Assembly: GCA_028687545.1 (NCBI GenBank)
Contig: JAQTZZ010000042.1
Location: 1-34,460, forward strand
Length of the DNA: 34,460 bases
Reading direction: 5' to 3'
From: Candidatus Wallbacteria bacterium
GTDB taxonomy: Bacteria > Muiribacteriota > JAQTZZ01
Positions 455-34,460 of this stretch are shown here, piece by piece (positions within the stretch are counted from its first letter, which is position 1; the number at the start of each line of letters is the position of its first letter). The position numbers and the translations under genes were made by a program. The notes below the pieces were generated by a model, which was not told the origin of the DNA, made no database searches, and saw nothing but the letters and a program-made list of their open reading frames with translations.

Positions 455-465
455 TTGGAGGGCAT

Positions 466-1140: not shown

Positions 1141-1149
1141 GGAGGAAAA

Positions 1150-2057: not shown

Positions 2058-2070
2058 CTGAGGAGGAAAT

Positions 2071-2898
2071 ATGGGAATTAAAGGATTTAAACCAATCACT
2101 CCGGGCCGCCGATTCATGACGATTTCCACCTTTGAGGAAATAGACAAGCTCAGTCCGGAAAAAAAACTGACACACGGCAGGAAAGAACCGGCCGGCAGGA
2201 ACAACCTGGGACGTGTCACAGTCAGGCACCAGGGTGCAGGCCATAAAAAGCGCTACCGGGAAATTGATTTTCTGAGGGATAAATATGGAGTTCCTGCAGT
2301 TGTACTTGGAATTGAGTATGATCCGAATCGCTCCGCCAACATCGCGCTTTTGCAGTACCATGACGGCGAGAAACGTTACATCATCGCCCCCAAAGATCTG
2401 AGGACAGGTGACAAAGTTCTTTCATCCAAGGATGAAGTTGAAGTGTCGATAGGGAATGCCTGTCCAGTTTCCAAAGTACCGATCGGGACGATTGTCCACA
2501 ATGTTGAACTTAAACCCGGCAAGGGCGGCCAGATTGCCCGTTCAGCCGGTTCCAGCGCCCAGATCGTCGGCACTGAGGGCAACTATTTCCATGTCAAGCT
2601 GCAGTCCGGTGAAATCAGGGCAATCCGCAAGGAATGCATGGTGACAATCGGGCAGGTCGGAAATATTGACCATTCCAACCAGACTATCGGTAAAGCCGGA
2701 CGCACCAGATGGCTTGGTATCAGACCCACGGTCCGCGGATGCACCATGAACCCATGCGACCACCCCCATGGCGGCGGTGAAGGACGTTCAAACTCCCACC
2801 GTCATCCGACTTCTCCCTGGGGACAGCCCGCCAAGGGTTACAAGACACGGAAAAACACCCAGTCCGATAAATACATCATTTCCCAGCGGAAACGGTAA
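2071..2898 (+). CDS. rplB: 50S ribosomal protein L2
   Basis: This 275-residue protein has the usual L2 length. It carries the conserved C-terminal motif [20 protein letters not shown], which includes the histidine region near the peptidyl transferase centre, and the central [12 protein letters not shown] segment. L2 is a primary 23S rRNA binder required for subunit association. AGGAGGAAAT precedes the ATG at 2071. Order rplW-rplB-rpsS is canonical. Confidence 0.97.
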
Positions 2899-2911
2899 AG
2901 GAGGACCCCGC

Positions 2912-3196
2912 ATGAGCAGATCGCTGAAAAAAGGACCTTACATACTCCCGGCCCTCGTGAAGAAAGTCAACGAGATGAACGCCAAGGGAGACAAAAAGCC
3001 GATCAAGACCTGGTCCAGGGCATCTCAGATCTCGCCGGAGATGGTTGGACACACGATCGCAGTTTACAACGGAAAGAAGCATATTCCCATCTACATAACG
3101 GAAAACATGGTCGGGCACAGGCTTGGAGAGTTCGCTCCCACCAGATTTTTCAAAGGCCATGGGAACAAGACAGAACGAACCATCGCACTGAAGTGA
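2912..3196 (+). CDS. rpsS: 30S ribosomal protein S19
   Basis: The reading frame is open from 2768, inside rplB, but the real start is the ATG at 2912: it follows AAAGGAGGACC and gives a 94-residue protein beginning [11 protein letters not shown], exactly the S19 N-terminus. The motif [11 protein letters not shown] near the C-terminus is conserved. S19 binds 16S rRNA in the 30S head with S13. The 13-base gap to rplB and 7-base gap to rplV show tight operon packing. Confidence 0.96.
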
Positions 3197-3203
3197 GGAG
3201 GAC

Positions 3204-3770
3204 ATGATGGAGGAGAGAAAAGAATCCAGAGCGTGTGTAAAGTCGGTGAGGATCACTCCCAGAAAGATGCGCCTCACTGCAGATTTGATCCGTGGCAAGG
3301 ACGTGGAATCAGCCTTTAAAATTCTGAAATATACGCCTAGGAAGGCAGCCAGAATCTTGAAGAAACTGCTGAAAAGTGCAGTAGCAAACGCCGAAAATAA
3401 CCACGGCATGGATGTCGACAGGCTGTATGTCGACAATATCCAGGTAGGACAGGGGGCGACATGGAAGAGAGTTCTTTCACGGTCCATGGGACGCGCCAAT
3501 CCAATTCTGAAGCGCACTTCGCATACAACTGTAGTCCTGCGGGAACTTGATGAAAAAGTGACGAAGGCTGAGGCTCCGAATGAATCAGGGAAAAAGACAG
3601 AAAAAGGCGAGAAGTCAGCAGCAAAAGCCGTGAAAAAGACCACTGTCAAGAAACCAGCCACTAAGAAACCGGCGGCCCAAAAACCGGCAATCAAGAAAAC
3701 ACCTAAGGCTGCGGCCAAGAAATCCACAAATTCTCCCAGAAAGGAGGCAACCAGTGGGACAGAAAGTTAA
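3204..3770 (+). CDS. rplV: 50S ribosomal protein L22 with long basic C-terminal tail
   Basis: Residues 1-115 are a complete L22, with RITPRKMRLTADLIRGK near the start and the exit-tunnel hairpin segment KRVLSRSMGRANPILKR. L22 usually has about 110-120 residues; this one has 188. The extra 70 or so residues are rich in Lys, Ala and Pro, with repeats such as KKPATKKPAAQKPAIKK, and look disordered. The last 17 bases overlap rpsC, and the tail codons contain the rpsC ribosome binding site AAGGAGG at 3741-3747. Start is ATG 3204 or 3207; the second is better spaced from GAGGAGGA. Confidence 0.95.
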   Translation: MMEERKESRACVKSVRITPRKMRLTADLIRGKDVESAFKILKYTPRKAARILKKLLKSAVANAENNHGMDVDRLYVDNIQVGQGATWKRVLSRSMGRANPILKRTSHTTVVLRELDEKVTKAEAPNESGKKTEKGEKSAAKAVKKTTVKKPATKKPAAQKPAIKKTPKAAAKKSTNSPRKEATSGTES

Positions 3771-4434
3771 TCCTATCGGAATGCGATTGGGCATAAACCG
3801 GGACTGGAATTCCAGATGGTTCGGAACCAGGAAGCAGTTCGCCGGCTGGCTGCATGAGGATCTGAAGATCCGCAAGTACATCATGGGTAAAGTACCGAAT
3901 GGCGATATCAGCAAAATTCAGATCGAAAGGCCGTCGGAACAAAGAATCAAAGTGACCATCTCAAGCTCCAAAGTCGGAATTGTGATCGGCAAGAGCGGCA
4001 AGGAAGTCACTGAGATGAAAAAGAAACTGCAGGAACTTATTAACCGTGAGGTTTTTATAAATATCCGCGAAGTCAAGGAACCACTCAAAGAAGCTACACT
4101 GGTGGCAGAATCCATTGCCGCTCAGCTGGAGCGGAGGGTTTCCTTTAGAAGAGCCATGAAGAAAATGCTGGAACGGGCCAGCGAGATTGGAATTCCAGGC
4201 ATGAAGATAATGGTCAGCGGTCGTCTTGGCGGAGCAGAAATTGCCCGCAGGGAATGGTACCTGCATGGTCGGGTACCGCTTCACACTCTGAAGGCTGATG
4301 TGGATTTCGCCCTTGCCAAGGCCGTCACAAAATATGGAGTGATCGGTGTGAAAGTGTGGGTATACCGCGGTGACATCGAGAGTTCGGATCAAGCTGACAG
4401 CAATCTCGGCGAAGAAATGATAGCCGCTGAATAA
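3754..4434 (+). CDS. rpsC: 30S ribosomal protein S3
   Basis: The protein has 226 residues and starts with GTG at 3754 (MGQKVNPIGMRLG, the invariant S3 N-terminus), supported by AAGGAGG seven bases upstream. The type II KH domain is visible with GKSG as the GXXG loop at residues 79-82. S3 sits at the mRNA entry and contributes to ribosomal helicase activity. The gene overlaps the end of rplV by 17 bases in another frame, so their translation is probably coupled. Confidence 0.97.
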   Translation: MGQKVNPIGMRLGINRDWNSRWFGTRKQFAGWLHEDLKIRKYIMGKVPNGDISKIQIERPSEQRIKVTISSSKVGIVIGKSGKEVTEMKKKLQELINREVFINIREVKEPLKEATLVAESIAAQLERRVSFRRAMKKMLERASEIGIPGMKIMVSGRLGGAEIARREWYLHGRVPLHTLKADVDFALAKAVTKYGVIGVKVWVYRGDIESSDQADSNLGEEMIAAE

Positions 4435-4449
4435 GCAGAGGAGGAAATT

Positions 4450-4863
4450 ATGTTGATGCCAAAAAGAGTAAAATATAGAAGAGTTCAGCGGGGTACCATG
4501 AAAGGTGTAGCCAACCGGGGGAACGAGGTCGTTTACGGAGCATTCGGAATCTCCGCTCTGGAACCCTCCTGGATCACCAGCCGCCAGATTGAGGCAGCCC
4601 GTGTGGCGATCAACCGCGCCATGAAAAAACACGGCAAGATGTGGATCAGGATTTTCCCCCATAAATCGGTAACTAAGAAACCAGCTGAAACGCGTATGGG
4701 GAACGGCAAGGGTTCTCCGGAATTCTGGGTGGCAGTGGTCAAACCCGGAAAAATCCTCTTCGAAGTGGACGGATGCGATGAGCGAGAAGCCAAAGAAGCT
4801 TTCCGGCTGGCTTCTCACAAGCTGCCCATTAAGACCAAATTCGTGGCCAAAGAAGAGCATTAA
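4450..4863 (+). CDS. rplP: 50S ribosomal protein L16
   Basis: The 137-residue protein starts [15 protein letters not shown] and carries [14 protein letters not shown] and [12 protein letters not shown], all hallmark L16 segments. L16 organises the A-site region of the 50S subunit. AGAGGAGGAAATT precedes the ATG at 4450. It lies between rpsC and rpmC as expected. Confidence 0.97.
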
Positions 4864-4881
4864 GACAGGGGGAATGAAAAA

Positions 4882-5097
4882 ATGAAGGGAAATGTTTTAA
4901 AGGAACTTACTTTCGATGAACTTAAGCAGAAATACAGCGATTTCAAGGAAGAGCTGTTCAACCTCAAGTTTCAAAGGGTAATGGGACAACTCGAAAACAA
5001 CATGCGGATCAGAGCAGTGAGAAAAGACATTGCCAGAGTCCTCACCCTGATGACCCAGAAGGAGAATACCAAGTCGGCGAAGGAGGCTAAGGCATGA
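4882..5097 (+). CDS. rpmC: 50S ribosomal protein L29
   Basis: A 71-residue, mostly helical protein with the family signature LKFQRVMGQLENNMRIRAVRK (split here as LKFQRVMGQLE and IRAVRKDIAR). L29 lies beside L23 at the tunnel exit. The last four bases overlap the start of rpsQ (ATGA at 5094-5097), so translation is likely coupled. The N-terminus MKGNVLKELTFDELKQK fits the family. Confidence 0.94.
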   Translation: MKGNVLKELTFDELKQKYSDFKEELFNLKFQRVMGQLENNMRIRAVRKDIARVLTLMTQKENTKSAKEAKA

Positions 5098-5357
5098 GCG
5101 AGACGACACGCAATATTAGAAAGACCAGGGTGGGGAAGGTCTTATCACGCAAGATGGAAAAGACTTGCGTAGTGGTTGTGGAGCGATCCTATCAGCACAC
5201 TCTTTACAAGAAAACCTTGCGCACTACCAAGAAGTACAAGGTTCATGATGAGAAGAACGAAACCAACCCCGGCGACAAAGTCCTGATTATGGAAACCAGG
5301 CCTCTGAGCAGGGAAAAGCGCTGGCGTCTTGTTAAGATCCTGGAAGCGGCCCGGTAG
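5094..5357 (+). CDS. rpsQ: 30S ribosomal protein S17
   Basis: The 87-residue OB-fold protein has the conserved segments [17 protein letters not shown] and [20 protein letters not shown] (the last quoted at 20 residues). S17 is a primary 16S rRNA binder. It overlaps rpmC by ATGA, with the ribosome binding site AAGGAGG inside rpmC. Length and order are normal. Confidence 0.95.
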
Positions 5358-5367
5358 AGGAGGGACA

Positions 5368-5736
5368 ATGGTACAGCATAGAACAATGTTGAAAGTGGCT
5401 GATAACAGCGGAGCTAAAAAGCTCCAGTGCATTCACGTTTACGGCGGCAGCGGCAAGAAAATAGCCCGGATCGGAGATGTCATCTGCGCCACGGTCAAAG
5501 AAGCTGTTCCGGACGGGAATGTGAAGAAGAGCCAGGTGGTGAAAGCCGTTGTGGTTCGGACCAGAGGAAAGCTCAGGAGAACCGACGGTTCCTATATCCG
5601 TTTTGACGACAACGCAGCCGTGATCATAGATGAAGCCAACAATCCTAAAGGAACCCGCATTTTTGGCCCCATCGCCAGAGAACTGCGGGAGAGGGATTTC
5701 ATGAAAATTATTTCCCTGGCTCCTGAAGTGGTCTGA
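5368..5736 (+). CDS. rplN: 50S ribosomal protein L14
   Basis: The frame is open from 5329, but the ATG at 5368 is the real start: it follows AGAGGAGGGAC and gives the 122-residue length typical of L14, beginning [17 protein letters not shown]. The ending [20 protein letters not shown] is conserved. L14 forms part of the subunit interface and the binding site of the silencing factor RsfS. It starts 10 bases after rpsQ ends. Confidence 0.96.
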
Positions 5737-5747
5737 AGGAGGAAGAG

Positions 5748-6080
5748 ATGGAAAACAAAACCAAAGTTAGAATCAGGAAAGACGACATGGTGATGGTGCA
5801 GACCGGCAAGGACAAGGGAAAGATTGGAAAAGTTCTGTCAGTCTTGCAGAATGAAAACAAAGTAATAGTGACGGGCGTGAACATGGTGAAGCGCCATCAG
5901 AAAGCTAATAAACAGCACCGTCACGGAGGAATCATCGAGAAAGAAGGACCGATTTTTTTAGCGAAAGTAATGCTGGTTTGTCCAAAGTGCAACCTGCCAA
6001 CCAAGATCGGGCACAAGTTGGTGAACGAAGTGAAAGTCCGCATTTGCAAAAAGTGCGAAGAAATCGTGGATAACGTCTAA
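5748..6080 (+). CDS. rplX: 50S ribosomal protein L24, zinc-motif type
   Basis: The 110-residue protein has a KOW motif at about residues 15-30 (VMVQTGKDKGKIGKVL), the RNA-binding signature of L24, which initiates 50S assembly. The C-terminal half contains two Cys pairs (C78/C81 and C100/C103) that can hold a zinc ion, as in many non-proteobacterial L24 proteins. The ribosome binding site is AAGGAGGAAG. Order rplN-rplX-rplE is canonical for the spc block. Confidence 0.95.
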   Translation: MENKTKVRIRKDDMVMVQTGKDKGKIGKVLSVLQNENKVIVTGVNMVKRHQKANKQHRHGGIIEKEGPIFLAKVMLVCPKCNLPTKIGHKLVNEVKVRICKKCEEIVDNV

Positions 6081-6090
6081 GAGGTAAGAT

Positions 6091-6633
6091 ATGACCAGAT
6101 TAATGAAACTTTACAGGGAAAAAGTAGTCAGTGAAATGATGAAAAGCAGGAGCTACAAGAATGTGATGCAGGTTCCCAAGATCCAGAAGGTCGTTCTGAA
6201 CATGGGAATCGGCGAAGCCAAGACTAATCCTAAGATCGTCGACGGCGCTATGAATGACCTGAAGGCCATCGCCGGTCAGAAACCGCAGCTCCGGAAAGCC
6301 AAGAAGTCCATCTCGAACTTCAAGTTGCGCGCAGGTATGACAGTCGGTGTAAAGGTCACTCTGCGAGGCGACAGGATGTACTACTTCCTGGATAAACTCT
6401 TCAACATCGTGCTTCCACGCGTGAGAGACTTCCGTGGCGTGTCACGGAAGTCTTTTGACGGCCGCGGCAGTTACACTTTCGGCGTCAAGGAACAGATCGT
6501 GTTCCCTGAAATCGACTACGATAAAATCGACCAGATCAGGGGAATGGATGTATCCATCGTGACAACCGCCGGGACTGATGACGAGTCTCTGGAACTGCTG
6601 GAACGCATGGGAATGCCTTTTACAAAAAAATAG
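6091..6633 (+). CDS. rplE: 50S ribosomal protein L5
   Basis: The 180-residue protein contains [36 protein letters not shown] and RVRDFRGVS, all standard for L5, which binds 5S rRNA and contacts the P-site tRNA. Its ribosome binding site AAGAGGTAAG is weaker than that of its neighbours. It lies 10 bases after rplX and 13 before rpsZ. Confidence 0.96.
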
Positions 6634-6646
6634 GGAGGAATGAGGA

Positions 6647-6832
6647 ATGGCCAGGAAAACGTTTTTCGAAAAGCAGAAAAGGACACCTAAGTTTTCTACC
6701 AGGTGGAGAAACCGCTGCCTGATTTGCGGGCGTCCCAGAGGTTTCATCGGTGATTTCCAGATGTGCCGGCTCTGCTTCAGGGGCCTCGCCTCAAAAGGCG
6801 AAATTCCCGGAATCATCAAATCCAGCTGGTAA
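6647..6832 (+). CDS. rpsZ: 30S ribosomal protein S14, zinc (type Z)
   Basis: At 61 residues this is the short, zinc-binding form of S14, with Cys pairs C24/C27 (CLICG) and C40/C43 (CRLC). The longer zinc-free paralogue seen under zinc limitation in some bacteria is not in the window. S14 assembles in the 30S head near S3 and S10. GGGAGGAATGAGGA precedes the ATG at 6647. Confidence 0.95.
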   Translation: MARKTFFEKQKRTPKFSTRWRNRCLICGRPRGFIGDFQMCRLCFRGLASKGEIPGIIKSSW

Positions 6833-6853
6833 AAACAAGGGAGGAATGACAAA

Positions 6854-7249
6854 ATGATGACAGATCCTATTGCCGATATGCTGACTCGAATCCGCAACGC
6901 CGGCTCCACCAACAAGGACGCGGCCGATGTACCCGCCTCCAAGGTGAAGCTGGAGATTGCCCGACTTCTCAAGGAAGAAGGGTACATAAAGGATTACAAG
7001 TACATCAAGCAGAGCTCCAAGGGTGTGATCCGGATTTACCTGAAATACACGAAAGAAAAGGAGCTTGCGATCAAAGGAATCAGACGCATCAGCCACAGCG
7101 GCAGAAGAGTTTACGCGGGTAAAGATGAGATACCCAGGGTGCTCGGCGGACTCGGCGTGGCGATTATATCCACTTCAAAGGGCATCATGACTTCCAGGCA
7201 ATCCCTCCAGGAAGGGGTTGGCGGGGAAGTCATCTGTTATGTGTGGTAA
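6854..7249 (+). CDS. rpsH: 30S ribosomal protein S8
   Basis: The 131-residue protein begins [17 protein letters not shown] and ends with GGEVICYVW, both diagnostic of S8. S8 is a primary 16S rRNA binder and in Escherichia coli the translational repressor of the spc operon; no matching operator was recognised here. Two adjacent ATGs (6854, 6857) follow GGGAGGAATGAC. Confidence 0.96.
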
Positions 7250-7261
7250 GGAGGAGGAACA

Positions 7262-7801
7262 ATGTCTAGAGTAGGAAAGAAACCAATCAATATTCCCAAG
7301 GGTGTGACAGTAACCCATGACCCTAAGAAACAGTCCATGAAGGCTAAGGGTCCCAAGGGTGAAAACGAAATGACCTACCATCCGTTGATGGAAGTGACCA
7401 TCGACAAAGAGACGATTCACGTGAAAAGGCCTGATGATTTGAAAGTAAACAAATCCCTTCATGGAATGACCCAGCGGATGATTGAAAACCTGATCATAGG
7501 GGTTACAAGCGGTTTTGAAAAAAAATTGATAATCAACGGCATAGGATTTAAGGCCGATGTCAAGGGTACAGACCTGGTCCTGAGCCTGGGATTTTCCCAT
7601 CCTGTGGAAATGAAGATGCCCAAAGGAGTAAACGCCAAAGCCGAGAAAGGCATGGTCACTCTCACCGGCATTGATAAAGAAGTGCTGGGACAGTTCGCTG
7701 CAGATGTGAGGGCTAAGAAGCCCACTGAACCATACAAGGGTTCAGGTATCAGATATGAAAACGAGAGAGTCAGGAAGAAGGCCGGTAAAAAGGCTGCCTA
7801 A
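7262..7801 (+). CDS. rplF: 50S ribosomal protein L6
   Basis: The 179-residue protein starts [15 protein letters not shown] and ends with the conserved [21 protein letters not shown] (20 residues or fewer quoted as [17 protein letters not shown]). L6 lies near the sarcin-ricin loop and factor-binding site. Its two repeated domains are visible by length. The ribosome binding site is AAGGAGGAGGAAC. Confidence 0.96.
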
Positions 7802-7824
7802 TCAATCAGGAAAGAGGTACTGCA

Positions 7825-8187
7825 ATGAAGAAGGATAAAGTTGCCAAGAGGACCGACCGTCACAACAGGATCAGATTGAAAGTTTCAGGAACGGCTGAAA
7901 AACCCAGGCTGTCGGTGTTCAAATCCACCAAGCACATCTCAGTTCAGATTATTGATGATACTAAGGGAGCGACGCTTGTAGCCGTATCGACTCTGGAAAA
8001 AGAAGTCAAGGATAATCTGAAACATGGCGGAAATATCAAAGCTGCCGAAATTGTGGGCGCTCTGATAGCCAAACGTGCCAAGGAAAAGAACATCGAGACA
8101 GTTGTCTTTGACAGAGGCGGATTCAGATATCATGGCTGCGTAAAAGCCATTGCTGAAAAAGCCCGTGAGAATGGACTGAAATTTTAG
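7825..8187 (+). CDS. rplR: 50S ribosomal protein L18
   Basis: This 120-residue basic protein has the L18 pattern [22 protein letters not shown]-like N-terminus (here [19 protein letters not shown]) and the ending [21 protein letters not shown]18 binds 5S rRNA with L5. It is followed by the longest gap inside the spc block (118 bases), which holds three hairpins before rpsE. Confidence 0.95.
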
Positions 8188-8277
8188 AAGCTGTTAAATA
8201 TGAGCGCAGCGAATATTTTACAGCTTCTTATCCCCGGAGCACAGCAAAGGGGATTAGTGTCCCAGTTATATAGGGAC
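8188..8277 (+). promoter_or_regulatory. Three consecutive hairpins in the rplR-rpsE gap
   Basis: Directly after the rplR stop, three inverted repeats can be read. The first pairs 8188-8201 with 8213-8226 (14 pairs with one mismatch) around a GAGCGCAGCGA loop. The second pairs ATCCCC (8230-8235) with GGGGAT (8249-8254). The third pairs GTCCC (8259-8263) with GGGAC (8273-8277). Other gaps in this operon are near 10-25 bases, so the insertion is conspicuous. It may be a repeat element or an RNA structure controlling rpsE or downstream mRNA; function is unknown. Confidence 0.6.
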
Positions 8278-8305
8278 CGAGATTGAGAACAGTTTAGGAG
8301 GATAC

Positions 8306-8818
8306 TTGAATATCCAGGATACCAGAGGAAATGAAAACGAACTTAAAGAACGCGTGATCTATGTAAATCGCGTTTGCAAGGTTGTCAAGGGCGGTAAGCG
8401 ATTCTCTTTCAGTGTACTGGCCGTTGTCGGCGATTCGCACGGCAAAGTAGGATATGGACTTGGAAATGCCAAGGAAGTACCTGAAGCGATGAGAAAAGCC
8501 GTGGAAAGAGCCAAGCGCGAAATGATTGTATTTCCGATGATCAAGGGTACGATCCCGCACGAAATTCTAGGAAGATACGGCTCCGGTAAAGTGCTCCTGA
8601 AGCCGGCAGTCCCTGGAACAGGAGTCATCGCCGGCGGAGCTGTGCGCGCCATCGCCGAACTTGGCGGGATTACTGATGTATTGTCCAAATGCATCGGTTC
8701 CAGAACCAAGATCAATGTGGTCAAGGCTACTTTTGAAGGATTGAAAGCATTGCGCTGTGCTGATACAATAGCCAAGGGCCGCGGAAAGACATCCAAAGAA
8801 ATACTCGGAACGACATAA
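8306..8818 (+). CDS. rpsE: 30S ribosomal protein S5 (TTG start)
   Basis: The 170-residue protein contains [21 protein letters not shown] and [18 protein letters not shown], the S5 double-stranded-RNA-binding-like domain and the fidelity-related region. Only TTG at 8306 can start it near the correct place; TTTAGGAGG ends four bases upstream, and no ATG or GTG lies in frame before the conserved region. S5 acts in decoding accuracy and mRNA entry. The rare start codon and the preceding hairpin cluster may lower or tune its translation; this is inference. Confidence 0.95.
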
Positions 8819-8829
8819 TTGGAGGAATA

Positions 8830-9012
8830 ATGGCCAAGCTGAAGATTACATTAAAGAAAAGCTGCTGCCGCAAACCGGAAAAAGTTCGCCGCGTGATCGA
8901 ATCACTGGGACTCCGTAAGGTCGGTGGAAGCAAGATATGCGAAGATAATCCGGTGATCCGTGGCATGATCGACAAGACTTCATACATGCTTGAAGTCGAA
9001 TCTGTTGATTAA
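8830..9012 (+). CDS. rpmD: 50S ribosomal protein L30
   Basis: A 60-residue protein of the single-domain L30 family: MAKLKITLKKSCCRKPEKVR, then LGLRKVGGSKI and a C-terminal MIDKTSYMLEVE. The double Cys at residues 12-13 replaces the more usual Ser/Ile region. It lies between rpsE and rplO as is canonical. Ribosome binding site TTGGAGGAA precedes the ATG. Confidence 0.93.
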   Translation: MAKLKITLKKSCCRKPEKVRRVIESLGLRKVGGSKICEDNPVIRGMIDKTSYMLEVESVD

Positions 9013-9023
9013 GGGAGGTTTAG

Positions 9024-9466
9024 ATGAAATTACATGAACTCGCTCCCAATGAAGGTGCAAAGAAGCTCGGTAAGAGAGTTGGAAGAGGGCCATCCTCAGG
9101 GCATGGCGGTACATCATGCAGAGGGAACAATGGACAGAATTCCAGGAAAAGCGGTCCCGTAAGGATAGGCTTTGAGGGGGGGCAGATGCCTCTGTACAGG
9201 CGACTTCCCAAGAGGGGCTTCAAAAACATCAATAAGAAACATTACAGCCTGGTGAATGTCTGCGATCTGGAAAAATTCGAACCACATACCATCATCACCC
9301 CTGAATTTCTGGTTGAGCAAGGTCTGGTGAAAAAAGTGGAACCCAATGGGATCAAAATTCTGGGCAATGGGGAACTGACAAAACCCCTGAAGGTTCTAGC
9401 CAACAAATTCACCAAATCAGCCATCGAAAAAATTGAAAAAGCACAGGGAAACATTGAGGTGTTGAA

Positions 9467-9470
<4 letters not shown>
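9024..9470 (+). CDS. rplO: 50S ribosomal protein L15
   Basis: The 148-residue protein has the Gly/Arg-rich N-terminus [19 protein letters not shown] and [17 protein letters not shown], both diagnostic of L15, a late-assembling 50S protein. Its TGA overlaps the secY ATG (ATGA at 9467-9470), so secY translation is likely coupled. GGGAGGTTTAG precedes the ATG at 9024. Confidence 0.96.
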
Positions 9471-10792
<1,322 letters not shown>

Positions 10793-10803
10793 GAGGATCC
10801 AGC

Positions 10804-11463
10804 ATGAATCTGATTCTGTTCGGGCCCCCTGGGGCCGGAAAAGGCACGCAGGCACAGTATCTCATCGACCGTTTGAAGGTTCCCCAGATTTCCACAGGAG
10901 ACATTCTGCGTGAGAATGTCAAGAAGGGAACTGAAACCGGCAGGCGCGCCAAGCAGGTCATGGACAGGGGCGAACTCGTTCCTGACGAGATCCTGAATCA
11001 GATGATCGAGAATCGGATCGCCGAAGCGGATTGCGCAGGAGGATATATCCTGGACGGATATCCACGTAATCTGAATCAGGCAGGGTTCCTGGCCTCTTTA
11101 TTGAAGAAAAGGAAAAAAGCACTGGATGCAGTGATTTCGCTCAAGGTGGACGATGAAGAACTGGTCAGCAGACTATCCGGCAGACGGCTCTGCCGAACCT
11201 GCGGCAAAAGCTACCATGTAAAGTTCCAACCCCCGAGTTCGGCTGGAAAATGTGACAGCTGCGGAGGTGAACTTTATACCAGGGACGACGACCGGGAAGA
11301 GACTGTCAAAAACAGGCTCAAAGTTTACCACAGCCAGACCAGTGCCGTGCTGGAATTTTACAGGAAATCCGGGGTGCTCCACGAGATCGACGGGAGCCAG
11401 GAGATTGACAGCGTGAGAGAAAAGATTTTCCAGGTGCTTGGCACCGGGAAAGCGGAAAAATAG
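10804..11463 (+). CDS. adk: Adenylate kinase, zinc-LID type
   Basis: The 219-residue enzyme converts ATP and AMP to two ADP. The P-loop GPPGAGKGT lies at residues 7-15, DGYPRN at 84-89 replaces the common DGFPRT, and the long LID domain carries four cysteines (C130, C133, C150, C153) that form a structural zinc site. AGGAGGATCCAGC precedes the ATG at 10804. Adk after secY is canonical, but the map gene often found next is absent; a repeat-rich gap leads to infA instead. Confidence 0.97.
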   Translation: MNLILFGPPGAGKGTQAQYLIDRLKVPQISTGDILRENVKKGTETGRRAKQVMDRGELVPDEILNQMIENRIAEADCAGGYILDGYPRNLNQAGFLASLLKKRKKALDAVISLKVDDEELVSRLSGRRLCRTCGKSYHVKFQPPSSAGKCDSCGGELYTRDDDREETVKNRLKVYHSQTSAVLEFYRKSGVLHEIDGSQEIDSVREKIFQVLGTGKAEK

Positions 11464-11500
11464 AAGGAATGCCCTGAGCAATTGCTTTGGGGTGACGCAT

Positions 11501-11567
11501 GAACTAAACCCCGCTCGCTTCGCTCGGGGTGGTGTAAAGAACTAAACCCCGCTCGCTTCGCTCGGGG
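11501..11567 (+). repeat. Two direct copies of a 29-bp GC-rich hairpin repeat
   Basis: The 29-base unit at 11501-11529 recurs exactly at 11539-11567; it starts GAACTAAACCCC and ends GCTTCGCTCGGGG. Each copy has arms CCCCG and CGGGG that can pair, with an inner two-base-pair helix. The copies lie in the 176-base gap between adk and infA. They resemble dispersed REP-like palindromic units. On the opposite strand the core GAGCGAAGCGA differs by one base from the loop of the first hairpin in the rplR-rpsE gap (GAGCGCAGCGA). Confidence 0.8.
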
Positions 11568-11571
11568 GTTA

Positions 11572-11621
11572 AGTAGCAGTAGCAAAAACCCTCGCGGAGC
11601 TCGTGCTTTTTAACTGCTACT
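11572..11621 (+). promoter_or_regulatory. Hairpin abutting the infA ribosome binding site
   Basis: AGTAGCAGT at 11572-11580 is the exact reverse complement of ACTGCTACT at 11613-11621, and further partial pairing is possible between the A-rich and T-rich inner flanks. The infA ribosome binding site AAAGGAGG begins at 11622, immediately after the stem. Such a structure could affect access of ribosomes to infA or protect the mRNA end; the role is inferred from position only. Confidence 0.5.
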
Positions 11622-11639
11622 AAAGGAGGACGCGCATTT

Positions 11640-11858
11640 ATGGCCAAAGAAGAGCCAATTGAAGTAACGGGAAAAGTAGTGGAAATACTTCCGAATGCTA
11701 ATTTCAAGGTGGAGCTGGAAAATGGACACCGGGTGCTGGCGCACATTTCAGGGAAAATGCGCATGCATTTTATCCGGATACTTCCCGGAGATAAAGTGAC
11801 AGTAGAACTTTCGCCCTATGACCTCACCAAAGGGAGAATTGTCTACCGGTTCAAATAA
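11640..11858 (+). CDS. infA: Translation initiation factor IF-1
   Basis: The 72-residue S1-like OB-fold protein matches the usual IF-1 length and has the family features [39 protein letters not shown] and a final RIVYRF. IF-1 occupies the ribosomal A site during initiation. AAAGGAGG precedes the ATG at 11640. Its position between adk and rpmJ is canonical for bacteria that lack map here. Confidence 0.97.
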
Positions 11859-11887
11859 AAAGAAAAAGCTTTACAAAACAGCGGATG

Positions 11888-11932
11888 TTGACTTAAAATA
11901 GTTTGACTTTAATTGGTTTGACCAAGATAAAA
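11888..11932 (+). promoter_or_regulatory. Three 15-bp TTGAC repeats with a promoter-like match before rpmJ
   Basis: TTGACT occurs at 11888 and 11903 and TTGACC at 11918, exactly 15 bases apart, each followed by an A/T-rich stretch. The second box is followed after 17 bases by GATAAA (11926-11931), a 4/6 match to the sigma-70 -10 element. This is a plausible promoter for the alpha block (rpmJ to rplQ). The exact 15-base spacing could also mark regulator half-sites. No regulator can be named. Confidence 0.45.
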
Positions 11933-11958
11933 ATTAAAATAAACCGAGGAGGAATGAA

Positions 11959-12072
11959 ATGAAAGTGAGAGCTTCAGTGAAGAAGATCTGCGACAAATGC
12001 AAGATTATCAAGAGAGCCGGGGTCGTTAGAGTTATCTGCGAAAATCCTAAGCATAAGCAGAGGCAGGGGTAA
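11959..12072 (+). CDS. rpmJ: 50S ribosomal protein L36, zinc type
   Basis: A 37-residue open frame starts at ATG 11959 after GAGGAGGAATGA and ends with TAA at 12070-12072. The peptide begins [19 protein letters not shown] and ends [10 protein letters not shown]11, C14, C27 and H32 form the C+ zinc ribbon of L36, a small 50S protein near the factor-binding region. It sits between infA and rpsM, its normal place. Confidence 0.96.
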
Positions 12073-12081
12073 GGAGGAAAC

Positions 12082-12462
12082 ATGGCACGTATTGCAGGAG
12101 TTGATTTACCCAAAAACAAAAGAGTAGAAGTTGCCTTGACTTATATTTATGGAATCGGCAGACCCACTTCGCAGAAAATCCTGAAAGCCACTGCCATAGA
12201 TATCAATAAGAGGGTTCACACTCTTACTGACGAAGAAGTAACCAAAATCAAGGAATATATCGACAACAATGTCAAGGTCGAAGGTGATCTGAGAAGAGAC
12301 ATCCAGATGTCCATCAAAAGACTGGTCGACATCGGCTGTTACAGAGGAATCCGTCACAGAAGAGGATTACCTGTCCGCGGCCAGAGAACAAGAACCAACG
12401 CCAGAACGAGACGCGGCATCAGACGTACAGTCGGCGCCAAGCGTGGCGAAATAGCGAAGTAA
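12082..12462 (+). CDS. rpsM: 30S ribosomal protein S13
   Basis: The 126-residue protein begins [20 protein letters not shown] and has [20 protein letters not shown] and [11 protein letters not shown], the S13 signature. S13 lies at the top of the 30S head and contacts tRNA and the 50S subunit. AAGGAGGAAAC precedes the ATG. Gene order rpmJ-rpsM-rpsK-rpsD-rpoA-rplQ is the canonical alpha operon. Confidence 0.97.
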
Positions 12463-12476
12463 GGGGAGGATGATAA

Positions 12477-12869
12477 ATGGCTAAAAAAGCTGCCAAGAGC
12501 GAAAAAAAGAGGGACAGGAAGCTGATCACCAATGGTGTGGCTCATATCGAGACGACTTTTAATAATACTATAGTCTCAATTACAGATCAGAAGGGAAATC
12601 TGATTGCCTGGTCTTCCGGAGGCAATGCCGGATTCAAAGGTGCCCGCAAGGGAACTGCCTATGCAGCTCAACTTGCAGCGGAATCTGCCGCCAAAAAAGC
12701 CCTGGACCTGGGTCTGCGGGAAGTCGAAGTGCGGCTCACGGGTCCTGGAGCCGGCAGAGAAACCGCCATCAGAGCGCTTCAGACTACCGGACTGGATATC
12801 AGATTGATCAGGGACGTGACGCCAATCCCGCACAATGGCTGCCGCCCGCCGAAAAGAAGAAGGGTTTAA
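12477..12869 (+). CDS. rpsK: 30S ribosomal protein S11
   Basis: The 130-residue protein shows a Lys-rich start, then [34 protein letters not shown] and the ending [18 protein letters not shown], all conserved in S11, which lines the mRNA path on the 30S platform. GGGGAGGATGATAA precedes the ATG at 12477. Confidence 0.97.
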
Positions 12870-12883
12870 GGAGGATATATTTC

Positions 12884-13513
12884 ATGGCCAGAAACCTGCT
12901 ACCATCCTGCAGGCAGTGCAGGAGAACCGGAGAGAAGCTCTTTATGAAGGGCGTCAGATGCTATAGCGAAAAGTGCGCCTTTGAGAGAAGGAAGTTTGCT
13001 CCCGGGATGCAGTCCGGCAAGAGGAGAAGCAAGCTCTCGGATTACGGAATGCAGCTCAATGAAAAACAGAAGTGCAAGAAAATGTATGGTATGATGGAGG
13101 CACAGTTCCATCGCTATTACTATATCGCCAACAAGATGGCTGGTGTTACAGGCCACAATTTACTGAGACTCCTGGAAAAAAGGCTGGACAATGCATTGTT
13201 CCGCAGCGGATTTGCAATTTCCAGGACTCAGTCCAGGCAGTTTGTTCGGCATGGACATGTGCTGATCAACGGGAAAAGGGTAAACATCCCTTCCTACCAG
13301 ATTAAAACCGGTGATGTGTTGGAGATCAAGACCACATTCAGGCAGAATGAAAACTTTAAGGTCCTGCTCGAGGCCGGCAAATCCAGAGAAATTCCCGGCT
13401 GGCTGCAGGTGGACTTCGAAAATTACAAATCCAAGGTTCTCAGGGAACCAGAAAGAGCCGACATCCAGGGTACGATCAACGAGAACACGATCGTGGAATT
13501 CTATTCCAAGTAA
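12884..13513 (+). CDS. rpsD: 30S ribosomal protein S4, zinc-motif type
   Basis: The 209-residue protein has an N-terminal Cys cluster (C9, C12, C26, C31) like the zinc-binding S4 of Thermus, followed by SDYGMQLNEKQKCKKMYG and an S4 RNA-binding domain with RQFVRHGHVLINGKRVNIPS. S4 starts 30S assembly and in Escherichia coli represses the alpha operon. AAGGAGGATATATTTC precedes the ATG. Confidence 0.97.
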   Translation: MARNLLPSCRQCRRTGEKLFMKGVRCYSEKCAFERRKFAPGMQSGKRRSKLSDYGMQLNEKQKCKKMYGMMEAQFHRYYYIANKMAGVTGHNLLRLLEKRLDNALFRSGFAISRTQSRQFVRHGHVLINGKRVNIPSYQIKTGDVLEIKTTFRQNENFKVLLEAGKSREIPGWLQVDFENYKSKVLREPERADIQGTINENTIVEFYSK

Positions 13514-13548
13514 TACCTGGAATTGAATCTGACGAGAAAGGGAGTTTT

Positions 13549-14559
13549 ATGAACTGGGATCTTGCTCAGTATATAGTTGAGGGAGAAAATGAAAAAGAAT
13601 TCGGGCGTTATGTGCTCGAACCCCTCCCCAAGGGAATCTCCTCAGTGGTGGGAAATGCCCTCAGAAGGCTGATCCTTTCCGCAGTTCCCGGCGCAGCAGT
13701 GACCGCAATCCTGATCGATGGTGTTGTGCATGAATTTTCTACGCTACCCGGACTATACGAGGATGTCCCTGATCTGGTCCTGAACATGCGTGAAGTGATC
13801 TTCAAAGTTACGGGACAGGACGTGACGGTGGTCAAGATGGAATCCCAGGGACCCTGCGAGATTTTCGCCAAGGACCTGATCCTTCCACTCGGCGTGGAAG
13901 TGCTCAATCCTGAGCATTACATCTGCCGCATCAACCGCAACGGCTCGATCCACGCGGAGATTTATGTCGGCATCGGCAGAGGATTCGTTCCTGAAGAGGA
14001 AAACAAGGACGAGAGTATGCCGATCAATACGATTTTCGTGAATTCCAACTTCTCCCCGATCAGCAAGGTTAATTATCGCACTGAGGTATACGAAAATGAC
14101 TCAGCTCAGGAACGTCTGATCATCGATGTGAAGACCAACGGCTCGGTCAGCCCGACCAAGGCCTTGAAAATCGGTGCGGTTTATTTGAACAAAGTACTCG
14201 GGATCATGAAGGATTTTGAAGAATTCGATACAAGGAAGGTAGCTGAGGAAGAAATGTACCCGAAAACCAAAGATACCAAGAATGTATTGGAACTTCATGT
14301 TTCAGAGCTTGGTCTTTCCCGCAGGTCTTCGAACTGCCTGAAGGCAGGGGAAATCACCTTAATCGGCCAACTGGCCCAGATGAGCAAGAATGACCTGATG
14401 AATCTTAAAAACTTCGGCAAGAAATCCTTGGATGAGATCAGGGAAAAGCTGCACGAATACGGACTGAGCTTGAAGGACGAGCAGCTTGATGAAACGGATG
14501 AAACAGACAAGGATATTGTGGACGAAGTAACAGAGGAGGAAAATAACGATGAGACATAA
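13549..14559 (+). CDS. rpoA: DNA-directed RNA polymerase subunit alpha
   Basis: The 336-residue protein has the dimerisation domain (about residues 1-230, with EPLPKGISSVVGNALRRLIL near the start) and the C-terminal DNA- and activator-binding domain, recognisable by LGLSRRSSNCLKAGEI and LMNLKNFGKKSLDEIREKL. The last 25 or so residues form an unusually acidic tail of Asp, Glu and Thr. It overlaps rplQ by 11 bases, with the rplQ ribosome binding site GAGGAGG inside its tail codons. Confidence 0.97.
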   Translation: MNWDLAQYIVEGENEKEFGRYVLEPLPKGISSVVGNALRRLILSAVPGAAVTAILIDGVVHEFSTLPGLYEDVPDLVLNMREVIFKVTGQDVTVVKMESQGPCEIFAKDLILPLGVEVLNPEHYICRINRNGSIHAEIYVGIGRGFVPEEENKDESMPINTIFVNSNFSPISKVNYRTEVYENDSAQERLIIDVKTNGSVSPTKALKIGAVYLNKVLGIMKDFEEFDTRKVAEEEMYPKTKDTKNVLELHVSELGLSRRSSNCLKAGEITLIGQLAQMSKNDLMNLKNFGKKSLDEIREKLHEYGLSLKDEQLDETDETDKDIVDEVTEEENNDET

Positions 14560-14908
14560 AATGCAAAGGGAAAAACTGGGGAAGTCGATCCCCCATAAAA
14601 AAGCCATGATCAGAAACATGGCCACTTCCCTTCTGGAAGTCGGCCGGATTAGAACCACTCTTCCCAAAGCCAAAGTGTTAAGGAAATATGTGGAGCACCT
14701 GATCACTCTGGCTAAAACAGACAGTCTGCATCAGCGAAAACTGGCTCATGCTTTCCTGAAGACCCACGAATCCGTGAAGAAGCTGTTCACCGAGATCGCT
14801 CCCCGCTATAAAGAGCGCAACGGCGGATATACCAGGATCTACCGGACCGGAGTCAGGATCGGCGATGCTGCAAGCATGGCACTGATCGAACTGATCACTG
14901 AAAACTGA
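14549..14908 (+). CDS. rplQ: 50S ribosomal protein L17
   Basis: The 119-residue protein contains HKKAMIRNMATSLLEVGRI and GGYTRIYRTGVRIGDAASMA, hallmark L17 segments near the tunnel exit. It overlaps rpoA by 11 bases. Its TGA stop is the first part of an eight-base-pair inverted repeat that ends right at the start codon of the next gene. Confidence 0.97.
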   Translation: MRHKMQREKLGKSIPHKKAMIRNMATSLLEVGRIRTTLPKAKVLRKYVEHLITLAKTDSLHQRKLAHAFLKTHESVKKLFTEIAPRYKERNGGYTRIYRTGVRIGDAASMALIELITEN

Positions 14909-26511: not shown

Positions 26512-27465
26512 ATGAATAAGATCAATTTTTTCACAAGATTCCTTTTTTTCATTCTGATTGTTTTCATTGCAGGCTCTCTATTTGCCGGTACCAATGAGCA
26601 ATTCAAGCTTACCGCCTCAGACAGATCAACGATCTATAACGGGGCGCAGCAGGCAGCCGCTGAATACGGCGATAAATTCAAAGTATCTGTTGCGGCTATC
26701 CCGAGTCGCTGGTATATCAGTGATCTCAAGTTTCCTGCCCTCAATGAAAATCAGAAGCAGCTGGTGCGTGATTTTTCTGCCACAGGGTATGTGCGGAGCA
26801 GGGGAGCCAACAGACTGCCTGCCAAATGGGACTGGCGGGATAACAATGGTGTCACTCCTGTCGGTGAACAGCAGAACAGCGATTGCTGGGCCTGGGGAGC
26901 TACCCACACCTTCGAACATTGCATAAAAGTGAAGGACAAGCAGGAAGTCAGGCTTGCTGTTCAGGATACCATCAGCTGCAGTGGAGCAGGCACTGCTGCA
27001 AACGGCGGTGATTTTGTGACTGACTTTTTTATATCCAAAGGCTGTGCCCTGGATGCAGATTATCCCTATACAGGGCAGGATGATCAGTGCAGAAACGATA
27101 TCAAGAGAGAGCATAAACTCTCAGATGCAAAGGTCTTCAATTTGGGTGATGCGGCATATCCTGACTTTAAGAGCATAATTCCTGCGATTCAGCAGATGGT
27201 CTACGAGCAGGGTGCAGTAGTGACAGCCTGCGTTTCCCAGGAGCTTGGCTTCAGAGCTTATGCTGGAGGAACCTACAATGTCCCGTCTAGGGTTGAAGAT
27301 AAGACAGACCACATTGTCCTGATCTGCGGCTGGGACGATAACAAGGATGGCGGAGCTTTCCTGATCAAAAATTCTTACAGCACACAGTGGGGTGAAGGCG
27401 GTTACGCCTGGATAAAATATGGCAGCGCCCAGGTTGGTTTTTACAACTGCCAGTATAAGTATTGA
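26512..27465 (+). CDS. Secreted papain-family (C1) cysteine peptidase
   Basis: The 317-residue protein has a signal peptide (residues 1-25, ending SLFAG), a propeptide-like region and a C1 peptidase domain from about residue 101 (LPAKWDWRDNNGVTPVGEQ). C125 (in SDCWAWGA), H267 (TDHIVLICGW) and N287 (IKNSYSTQWGEGGY) match the catalytic Cys, His and Asn of papain. The oxyanion Gln is probably Q120, five residues before the Cys instead of the usual six, and the CGSC motif is altered to NSDC. Activity is therefore likely but not certain. The gene has its own promoter and terminator, and so is monocistronic. Confidence 0.88.
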   Translation: MNKINFFTRFLFFILIVFIAGSLFAGTNEQFKLTASDRSTIYNGAQQAAAEYGDKFKVSVAAIPSRWYISDLKFPALNENQKQLVRDFSATGYVRSRGANRLPAKWDWRDNNGVTPVGEQQNSDCWAWGATHTFEHCIKVKDKQEVRLAVQDTISCSGAGTAANGGDFVTDFFISKGCALDADYPYTGQDDQCRNDIKREHKLSDAKVFNLGDAAYPDFKSIIPAIQQMVYEQGAVVTACVSQELGFRAYAGGTYNVPSRVEDKTDHIVLICGWDDNKDGGAFLIKNSYSTQWGEGGYAWIKYGSAQVGFYNCQYKY

Positions 27466-30368: not shown

Positions 30369-30396
30369 TTGACATACTAACATTTGTGAATATTCT
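30369..30396 (+). promoter_or_regulatory. Sigma-70-like promoter of the tetrad-repeat gene
   Basis: TTGACA (30369-30374) is followed after 16 bases by TATTCT (30391-30396), a 4/6 match to TATAAT. The start codon lies 29 bases beyond and is preceded by TGGGAGGTTGC. The 155-base gap before the gene has no other feature that could be recognised. Confidence 0.6.
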
Positions 30397-30425
30397 TTAT
30401 TTAATACACAATTCTGGGAGGTTGC

Positions 30426-32135
30426 ATGAAATTTTTGTGTGGCTTACTGTCCCTTTTGATCTGTGCCGCTTACCCTGTTCCGATTTATGCAGGCGATTCT
30501 GATCTGAAATCGTACAATCCACTTGTTCCGGTAATTACTGACAACAATCATAATGACCCAACTCCTTCATTTTATCCCAATCCACACCCTAACCCTAATC
30601 CTAACCCAAACCAAAATCCCAATCCGCACCCAAACCCCAATCCGCACCCAAACCCTAATCCGCACCCAAACCCTAATCCGCACCCAAACCCGAATCCTAA
30701 TCCTAACCCAAATCCGAACCCTAACCCCAATCCGGATCCAAATGATCAACTGGATTACCAGAACGGCTTCAATCAGGGTATGGAACGCGGCAGGGGGGAT
30801 GGATACATCGCCGGACACCGCGACGGTCAGATTGAGGGTACTTCCCAGGGCGAACGGGATGGCAGAACTGCCGGATCATCCGAAGGTCACAGCAAAGGCC
30901 TCCAGGCTGGACAGCTTGCAGGACGTGAGCAGGGCATGCAACAAGGCAAAGCAGATGGAGAATCCAAAGGAACAGCGCTGGGTCAGAAAGCCGGGCAGGA
31001 TCGCTGCTATAATGAAGGCTATGCTGCCGGAGAAAATGAAGGCTATATAGACGGCTATGCAGAAGGCGAACACGGCAATTTCTATAACAACGGAATGGCT
31101 CAGGGCAGCGCTGACGCAGCCAAAGCCGGAAAGGACCAAATCTATCAGGCCGGCTATAAATCTGGATTCGCGGACAGGGAAAAAGAAATCCACGATCAGC
31201 CAAGGAACACCAGGACCGAAAATTCCCGCAACAATGTCCAGAATGATCTAATCACAGACATTCAATCTGTAAGTGACGAAAAACTCGCTGCAGCCAGATT
31301 CGGAAATTCACCTGCCTATCAAAGAGGATTCAATGACGGTTACAGGCAGGGCTACAACCAATCCTATGAGCGGGCCAGATCACAGGCTTACAGCGAAACT
31401 TACGGAAACGCATATTCCCAGGCCTATCAGACCACCTACCCTGATGCCTACAATAATGCTTACAGCCAGGGTTATGACCAGACTTACCAGACAGCCTACG
31501 ACAATACATATACTCAGAGTTACAACAGCGCATACCATTACAGTCTGTCCCAGGAATATCCTTCCTACAGAGCCAGTGGCCATAGCGCAGGCTACCCGGT
31601 AGGTAAAACCGAGGGTTTCAATGAAGCCAGCAAAATGCAATATGACAAGGGTTATACAGACGGGTACAACAAAACCGCAGCTAAAAAGGATCCCAAGGCT
31701 TACGCAGACGGCAAAGCCAAGGGCGTGGCAGAGGCCGATAAATACTACCAGAAAAATGCTGTGCTGGTTATAGAAAAGACCTTTGTCCTCGACAGCAATA
31801 GCAACAACATCAACGAAGCCGGCGAAGAGCTTAGGCTATGCATCGAAATCGTCAACTATGGATCTCAGGATTCAACCGCACTCACAGTGGATTTGAGCAC
31901 TGCCAGCCAGGGATTGACCCTCAAGGGACCATCCTCCATATCTGCGATTAAAGGAAAGTTGCGCACTCAACTTATTCTGCCACTCGGCAGAGTGAACAAT
32001 GATGTCATTAACTGCACGAGCGCAGCGCTCAAAATCTCCTTAAACGCTAACGGCTCAGTCGTCAGCTGCAAAGTGATGCGGATCATACTCAACAACCAGA
32101 GTCAGATGATCGGCAAATCCACACTTCCGCAGTAA
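30426..32135 (+). CDS. Secreted tetrad-repeat protein with Pro-Asn rod
   Basis: The 569-residue protein is not a recognised full-length family. It has a signal peptide (about 1-22), a 56-residue rod of 28 dipeptides, mostly PN or PH (51-106), 19 consecutive GXXX tetrads (114-189), a mixed GY zone (about 195-245), a polar linker, 19 tetrads of small residue-aromatic-X-X (about 297-372, for example AYSQAYQTTYPDAYNNAYSQ), further GY repeats, and a C-terminal beta domain (about 446-560) with DSNSNNINEAGEELRL, reminiscent of CARDB/Ig-like domains. The GX3 zone recalls the deca-GX3 motif of Yae1. It probably acts outside the cell or on its surface. It has its own promoter and terminator. Confidence 0.85.
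   Translation: MKFLCGLLSLLICAAYPVPIYAGDSDLKSYNPLVPVITDNNHNDPTPSFYPNPHPNPNPNPNQNPNPHPNPNPHPNPNPHPNPNPHPNPNPNPNPNPNPNPNPDPNDQLDYQNGFNQGMERGRGDGYIAGHRDGQIEGTSQGERDGRTAGSSEGHSKGLQAGQLAGREQGMQQGKADGESKGTALGQKAGQDRCYNEGYAAGENEGYIDGYAEGEHGNFYNNGMAQGSADAAKAGKDQIYQAGYKSGFADREKEIHDQPRNTRTENSRNNVQNDLITDIQSVSDEKLAAARFGNSPAYQRGFNDGYRQGYNQSYERARSQAYSETYGNAYSQAYQTTYPDAYNNAYSQGYDQTYQTAYDNTYTQSYNSAYHYSLSQEYPSYRASGHSAGYPVGKTEGFNEASKMQYDKGYTDGYNKTAAKKDPKAYADGKAKGVAEADKYYQKNAVLVIEKTFVLDSNSNNINEAGEELRLCIEIVNYGSQDSTALTVDLSTASQGLTLKGPSSISAIKGKLRTQLILPLGRVNNDVINCTSAALKISLNANGSVVSCKVMRIILNNQSQMIGKSTLPQ
30576..30743 (+). repeat. Tandem DNA repeat encoding the Pro-Asn/His rod
   Basis: These 168 bases are built from six-base units encoding Pro-Asn or Pro-His. 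In the middle, an 18-base higher-order unit (AATCCGCACCCAAACCCT and close variants) occurs about four times in a row. Such in-frame tandem repeats can change length by slippage, so the rod may vary between strains. Third-base differences between units show that it is not very recent. Confidence 0.85.
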
Positions 32136-32154: not shown

Positions 32155-32183
32155 GAAAAACCGGGGAAACCCCCGGTTTTTTT
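32155..32183 (+). terminator. Intrinsic terminator after the tetrad-repeat gene
   Basis: The stem AAAAACCGGGG pairs with CCCCGGTTTTT around a four-base loop, and the T run continues to seven T residues. It lies 19 bases after the stop codon, a standard strong Rho-independent terminator. Confidence 0.93.
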
Positions 32184-33716: not shown

Positions 33717-34460
33717 ATGTTTAAAAATTCAGTCCTGATTCTGTTTTTTCCGGTACTCCTTTATGCAATGGAAAATCCAGCTGTAAACCTTACCGCCCGT
33801 TTTAATGCAGCCAGGGAACTGTTTAGGATTGAAAAGGCTACTTATACAGTTTCTGCTGCAGCGGCATCCAGTGGAACCGTCAGTCTGGCAGGCCTTGTGT
33901 TTCCGGAAAGAATCAGCAGATCGTCTGTTTTAAGGCTGGACAGCTCGGAAATTCAGCTTCCAGCAAAATTTGACTGGCGGGAATTCCACTGTGTGAGTGC
34001 AGTCAAGGATCAGAAAAGCAGCTGCTTCGGCTGCTGGTCTTTTACGCTCTGCGGAATGCTGGAATCTCAAATTCTGATGAAGGACTCGATTGAAGTCGAT
34101 CTTTCAGAGCAGGATCTGATAAATTGCAACCAGAACGGTTACAACTGCAGGAATGGCGGATTTCTGGATGCAGCAAAAAATTTCCTCGACGGAGCTGCCC
34201 TTGAACAGGACTGCCCATACCTTGACGCAGATGGGGAATGCCGGAAGGATCTGCAGAGACCTTATAAGATCAGAGACTGGAAATACCTGAGCCTGAGTCT
34301 CAATTCACCGCCACAGGTTGAAGTGATCAAGCAGGCTATCATGCAATACGGACCTGTAGGCTGCGGTGTGGGGCAGACGACACCTTTGGATTTTACAGCG
34401 GCGGTGTTTACAATCACGAAACCCTGCCCATGGTCAAACCTAATCACGCAGTGATGCTGG
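33717..34460 (+). CDS. Secreted papain-family (C1) peptidase, frameshifted and cut by the window end
   Basis: The protein starts MFKNSVLILFFPVLLYA, a signal peptide, and has a propeptide-like part and a C1 domain from about residue 81 (LPAKFDWREF). Q99 and C106 (in SSCFGCWSF) fit the oxyanion and catalytic positions, with one extra residue between them; LSEQDLINC is conserved. At 34391-34394 (GATTTTAC) the frame breaks: the annotated frame stops at 34454, whereas the -1 frame continues with FYSGGVYNHE and PNHAVML, the expected catalytic-His region. One extra T would restore it. It may be a sequencing error, a true frameshift or, less likely, slippage. The 3' end is beyond the window. Confidence 0.85.

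Follow-up and report, generated by a model that had tools for sequence, protein, structure and literature searches.

A 569-amino-acid (aa) protein encoded in a 34,460-nucleotide stretch of Candidatus Wallbacteria DNA (hereafter, the window) appears, on the basis of sequence searches, to represent an undescribed family of tetrad-rod proteins in which a known packing motif is used at unusual length. The gene, an open reading frame with homologues of the same domain order, lies at positions 30426–32135 of the + strand, as an earlier note on this DNA had correctly placed it. From the N- to the C-terminus, the protein consists of a signal peptide, a PN/PH rod, a first tetrad zone, a linker, a second tetrad zone, an Ig-like beta domain, and a short tail. 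Pfam and NCBIfam hold no model for the whole protein, with only its Gly tetrads (Yae1_N, FliH) and the SH3 domain of its relatives being matched, and no known family has this full architecture, which the note had not recognised either. Searches of phage, IMG/VR, and anti-phage-defence data returned no match, and no description of the family was found in open-access papers.

Zone 1 begins with Gly-X-X-X repeats (residues 114–217; 30765–31076, + strand) that were delimited using the sequence, the relatives, and a Yae1_N match. Gly recurs at every fourth residue from 114 to 190, Cys194 follows in the same phase, and G198–G214 complete the series (26 in-phase slots). The strict four-residue Gly period described earlier is therefore confirmed, although the count of 19 tetrads becomes 20 consecutive ones before Cys194 and five more after it. 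In the second part of zone 1 (residues 218–257; 31077–31196, + strand), recognized from relatives and from the model helices, the tetrads are offset by one residue and include a conserved AGYKAGF motif. This part had been taken for a mixed GY bridge between the zones; it belongs to zone 1, and a non-repetitive linker of 30–45 aa comes after it (residues 258–288; 31197–31289, + strand; pLDDT <50), which is variable (33–45 aa in relatives). Zone 2 (residues 289–448; 31290–31769, + strand) contains small-Tyr-X-X and then Gly-rich tetrads in a single phase, based on the sequence and the alignment. A small residue followed by Tyr or Phe fills five slots at 297–313 and 13 at 321–369, with a single break (Ala-Arg at 317); the four-residue period of the 19 small-aromatic-X-X tetrads reported before is thus retained, but they amount to 18 of 19 consecutive slots. 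The small residue alone is unbroken over 22 slots (289–373), and its phase runs on to residue 445 with gaps. When tetrads were pooled across the family, Gly, Ala, or Ser occupied position a and charged or polar residues positions c and d, and position b of zone 2 was Tyr in 78%.

Using 5000 composition-preserving shuffles, we found longest tetrad runs of 8 (Gly) and 4 (small-aromatic), compared to the observed 20 and 13. Synonymous codons are mixed (GGC/GGA/GGT/GGG: 14/11/5/2; TAC/TAT: 18/9), therefore the pattern exists at the protein level and a recent DNA repeat expansion is ruled out. The idea that one repeat had drifted into the other is not supported, because each of the 34 relatives examined has both zones as separate units in colinear order.

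The genome that carries the protein (G000) encodes three paralogues (32–48% identity), and one copy each was found in another Ca. Wallbacteria genome and in Ca. Muiribacterium halophilum. The same domain order occurs in five close homologues and in about 28 more sequences from Elusimicrobiota. The comparison of related genomes suggested in the earlier note yielded this order in 34 sequences, all of which show a signal peptide, zone 1 with RCY[NDK]EG[YF], AGYxxGF, the linker, zone 2, and the Ig-like domain in succession. A profile (alignment) scan of genome contigs recovered 30 loci, mostly from Elusimicrobiota, and profile matches in Elusimicrobiota span all 525 model positions; a single-sequence pattern scan of genome contigs found no relatives. 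The distribution is patchy: within one Elusimicrobiota family, the gene occurs in 37 of 59 genomes (usually once, rarely in two copies), and 28 of 295 genomes in a sample of the phylum have a full-length match, while a 29th genome (G270) has no more than a weak partial one. In the phylogenetic tree, the Elusimicrobiota sequences group together (100/100) and the 569-aa protein groups with its paralogue L021 (shown as L046), with several branches being long. Another paralogue from the same genome (L048; G000 contig C32) clusters with L077, which comes from the other Ca. Wallbacteria genome, and not with the 569-aa protein (96/82), hence the duplications may predate the split of the two Ca. Wallbacteria genomes. 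An Elusimicrobiota-type copy was also found on a contig binned as Actinobacteria (L053; HGW-Actinobacteria-6), which is probably mis-binned because this copy is near-identical to an Elusimicrobiota sequence (sister, 100/100).

Both tetrad zones are nearly fixed in length (~150 aa each) in all relatives, which come from two distant bacterial groups. All 25 relatives of alignment A3 have a zone 2 of exactly 155 aa (152 aa as cut in the 569-aa protein), and zone 1 is 146–152 aa where the aligned stretch is complete (26 aligned sequences), with shorter values reflecting the point where the match began. The family is under purifying selection, as shown by nine close pairs in which dN falls far short of dS (ratio ~0.08–0.47). 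The Cys194 codon (31005–31007, + strand) lies within the RCY[NDK]EG[YF] motif and is present in all 34 relatives; this invariance is partly a collection effect, given that the motif was used to collect sequences, and Cys194 is also invariant within alignment A1, the rows of which were gathered by whole-protein tblastn. In most members, the aligned region contains just one Cys besides Cys194, located in zone 2, and in six members Cys194 is the sole Cys of the aligned mature region and is still kept.

AlphaFold2, run with 26 sequences, predicted that most of each zone in the 569-aa protein is helical and that a beta sandwich is present (mean pLDDT 66.7, pTM 0.50), and the same picture with an additional C-terminal beta domain was obtained for an Elusimicrobiota member (mean pLDDT 67.8, pTM 0.41). 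The pLDDT is 70–90 for the helices over most of both zones and <50 in the first 45 residues and the linker. These models support the earlier proposal that the tetrads form long helices, which are predicted at residues ~108–257 and ~298–443, well beyond the ~76 residues assigned to each zone. The opposite outcome, in which both zones are disordered and unconserved, was not observed, with helices predicted and both phase and length conserved. On a helix of 3.6 residues per turn, an exact period of four implies a right-handed supercoil with 36 residues per turn, for which we computed a crossing of ~41 degrees at 3.2 Å radius and an axial length of ~21 nm for 152 residues. This angle is close to the known crossing of GxxxG pairs. 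In a test of low power, zone-to-zone covariation gave no significant register (426 diagonals, Neff ~19; best z 3.3 antiparallel and 2.5 parallel).

The signal peptide (residues 1–22; 30426–30491, + strand) was read from the sequence as a Lys, a hydrophobic stretch, and an A-X-A-like site, with likely cleavage after IYA and no lipobox, and a signal-peptide-like N-terminal stretch occurs in every relative. From this signal peptide, we infer that the protein is exported via the Sec pathway. The PN/PH rod (residues 50–105; 30573–30740, + strand) has the 28 dipeptides counted before, although only 26 of them are PN or PH and the other two are one QN and one PD. Across relatives, the rod ranges from absent to >100 residues and its composition is also free to vary: there is none in L023–L025, PN/PH in L021 and L022, and PQ, PGQP/PGQ, or PGGDHGG segments in Elusimicrobiota. 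The rod is not peculiar to this protein: some family members are rodless, and the same genome encodes several other exported proteins, unrelated to the family, that carry PN/PT rods; such rods are a lineage-wide linker habit. PN, PT, or PNPA/PNPG rods were found in L026, L030, L031, and L023:4770-6077 (G000 contigs C2, C65, C46, and C30), with the unrelated rod-bearing proteins being of beta-propeller, DUF6345, and unknown types.

The second tetrad zone is followed by an Ig/CARDB-like beta-sandwich domain (residues 449–555; 31770–32090, + strand), which AlphaFold2 predicts with eight strands (pLDDT mostly 74–85). Foldseek matches in the PDB covered this beta domain only and were all Ig-like beta sandwiches. 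The CARDB-like domain recognized earlier is consistent with this fold and with a weak CARDB match (E 0.046) in paralogue L023 (14.4 bits vs. the cut-off of 22.7); CARDB (PF07705) had no match in the 569-aa protein. Alignments show that relatives run on into an SH3-like domain where the 569-aa protein has only a short C-terminal tail (32091–32132, + strand). SH3_3 was matched in L021, L022, and L024, most relatives have an SH3-like C-terminus, and two members end in a different tail. The SH3 domain has been lost from the 569-aa protein.

The SMN-type YG zipper is the nearest precedent for the Gly/Tyr tetrad. This precedent goes beyond the earlier note, as do Cys194, invariant and in phase, and the SH3-like domain at the C-terminus of most relatives. 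Tyr and Gly interdigitate at this spacing in the SMN YG box, the helices of which pair into a parallel, face-to-face dimer (PMC8287954; structures PDB 4GLI and 4RG5 as cited therein). The same interdigitation of Gly and Tyr with period four was found in zone 2 (18 of 19 slots at 297–369) and in the family composition. Small residues on the third face are likewise shared, and the SMN helix self-associates; however, the SMN YG box has about three tetrads and is eukaryotic and intracellular, whereas the 569-aa protein has up to 22 consecutive small-residue slots and is bacterial and probably exported. Zone 2 alone showed no match to the SMN YG box in Pfam and PDB sequence searches, and PDB sequence searches gave compositional matches only (e.g., other GX3-like or Gly/Tyr-rich tails). 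The likeness of the GX3 repeats to Yae1 that had been pointed out earlier is borne out by PF09811 matches in 26 of 26 relatives scanned. The whole 569-aa protein scores 23.1 bits, below the cut-off of 27.5, and zone 1 alone 28.9 bits, above it; L023, L024, and L025 also pass. Zone 1 shares tandem Gly-X-X-X with the Yae1/Lto1 deca-GX3 proteins, the pairing of which is abolished by deca-GX3 mutations (PMC4523923). In contrast, Yae1/Lto1 has ten tetrads and is a cytosolic eukaryotic Fe-S adaptor, the 569-aa protein has neither an Fe-S partner nor the Trp tail, and the Tyr zone occurs only in the latter; the signal peptide also argues against a cytosolic Yae1-type role as an Lto1 partner in Rli1 recruitment. 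The FliH equivalog of NCBIfam aligned to the repeat alone (best 64.2 bits, far below the cut-off of 180), with no match to the FliI-binding C-terminal domain. FliH/YscL proteins share Gly-tetrad repeats, which in FliH are dimeric AxxxG(xxxG)nxxxA helices with Tyr or Phe common after Gly (PMC2674601), but FliH itself is a cytoplasmic flagellar export protein with a variable repeat number. None of FliH, Yae1/Lto1, and SMN is exported, and their repeats are far shorter than those of the 569-aa protein.

The gene stands alone between a sigma-70-like promoter (TTGACA-16-TATTCT; 30369–30396, + strand; 10 of 12 consensus matches, plausibly placed relative to the gene) and a likely terminator found by sequence scan (32156–32183; a GC-rich hairpin flanked by T/A tracts), although such sites and hairpins occur in the region at a frequency close to chance. 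A ribosome-binding site (GGGAGG; 30416–30421, + strand) lies four bases upstream of the ATG. The neighbours of the gene are an NlpC/P60+SH3_6 gene upstream and an enolase-superfamily gene (MR_MLE) downstream, the latter possibly a dipeptide epimerase. Elsewhere, an amidase with SH3 adjoins L021, a triple-SH3 protein L023, and NamZ and MltA L076; of the four copies in the genome that carries the 569-aa protein, three have peptidoglycan genes next to them. No gene neighbourhood is conserved across loci, most Elusimicrobiota loci have no peptidoglycan neighbours, and near neighbours (58 proteins) compared to farther ones (61) show only a weak peptidoglycan excess. The window also contains a housekeeping region (146–14908) with ribosomal protein operons (L3, L2, L22, L5, L6, S4), SecY, adenylate kinase, and RNA polymerase alpha, and two cysteine proteases of the papain family (C1), both probably carrying signal peptides (26512–27465 and 33717–34454), flank the region of the gene.

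Our favoured reading, which we place just short of probable, is that the 569-aa protein is a stiff, fixed-length spacer or tether in the envelope, with packed tetrad helices and a C-terminal anchoring end. After Sec export, the protein would stay in the cell envelope, where each tetrad zone is predicted to be a single long alpha-helix and the zones would pack via Gly, Ala, and Ser, with Tyr rings against the neighbouring backbone, much as in glycine or YG zippers. Folding into an antiparallel hairpin at the 33–45 aa linker, dimerization, or a combination of the two would give a stiff rod of fixed length (~20–21 nm at full extension). The Pro-rich segment near the N-terminus would act as a flexible tether of variable length, and the Ig-like domain (with the SH3-like domain in most relatives) would be the anchoring end, most likely on peptidoglycan. 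This picture of rod, tether, and anchor points to a spacer or tether rather than an enzyme. Lpp-type envelope spacers are comparable in being exported long helices that link or space envelope layers, but Lpp has a heptad coiled coil, a lipid anchor, and a covalent peptidoglycan link, all of which the 569-aa protein lacks. The spacer reading draws on the two long helical zones predicted in both modelled proteins, the near-constant zone lengths while rod and linker vary, dN well below dS, the tetrad composition, the period-four supercoil geometry, the SMN YG box and Yae1-Lto1 precedents, and the SH3-like C-termini of most relatives, with mild support from the peptidoglycan neighbours. Against it stand the moderate model confidence, the lack of a significant covariation register, the absence of SH3 from the 569-aa protein, the other tail of two members, and the unconserved neighbours at most Elusimicrobiota loci.

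Two other arrangements of an exported tetrad protein were considered. The rather unlikely first is a homodimeric parallel tetrad coil with an inter-chain Cys194 disulfide, which would provide the C-terminal domains with an oligomerisation scaffold outside the cell. Cys194 shares the phase of the Gly (interface) positions and is retained even where it is the only Cys, and the dimers known from the YG box have a parallel, face-to-face arrangement (PMC8287954); however, the second Cys in zone 2 of most members makes an intramolecular bond conceivable as well, and equal zone lengths with a linker fit a hairpin better. We give somewhat less weight still to a surface adhesin or biofilm matrix protein, with the rod projecting the tetrads and Tyr faces that stick or crosslink. 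The signal peptide, Pro-rich rod, Tyr-rich zone, and similar rods in other exported proteins of the genome agree with an adhesin, but several members have no rod, neither an outer-membrane anchor nor a signal for surface sorting was seen, and most relatives end in an SH3-like domain; moreover, almost every tetrad places Tyr beside the small packing residue, which is what buried packing would predict. That the protein is low-complexity and mostly disordered, its pattern reflecting compositional drift, is highly improbable despite the Gly-rich composition and the poorly modelled N-terminus and linker, given that shuffles never reach such runs, helices are predicted with pLDDT 70–90 over most of both zones, phase and length are the same in relatives of separate phyla, and selection is purifying.

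A broader extension of the spacer reading, which we regard as doubtful, is that these proteins form a new envelope class in which two ~150-residue tetrad helices would build a continuous right-handed glycine/YG-zipper rod of constant length, acting as a molecular ruler between envelope layers in Elusimicrobiota and Wallbacteria. Published GX3/YG tetrad helices are short, with about 3 to 12 tetrads (PMC2674601, PMC4523923, PMC8287954), and the present family reaches ~26 and ~39 slots in phase, at lengths that separate phyla have in common. The family would lend itself to testing how long a right-handed tetrad zipper can become, and the protein would be a candidate structural component of the envelopes of Elusimicrobiota and Wallbacteria, which have been little studied.
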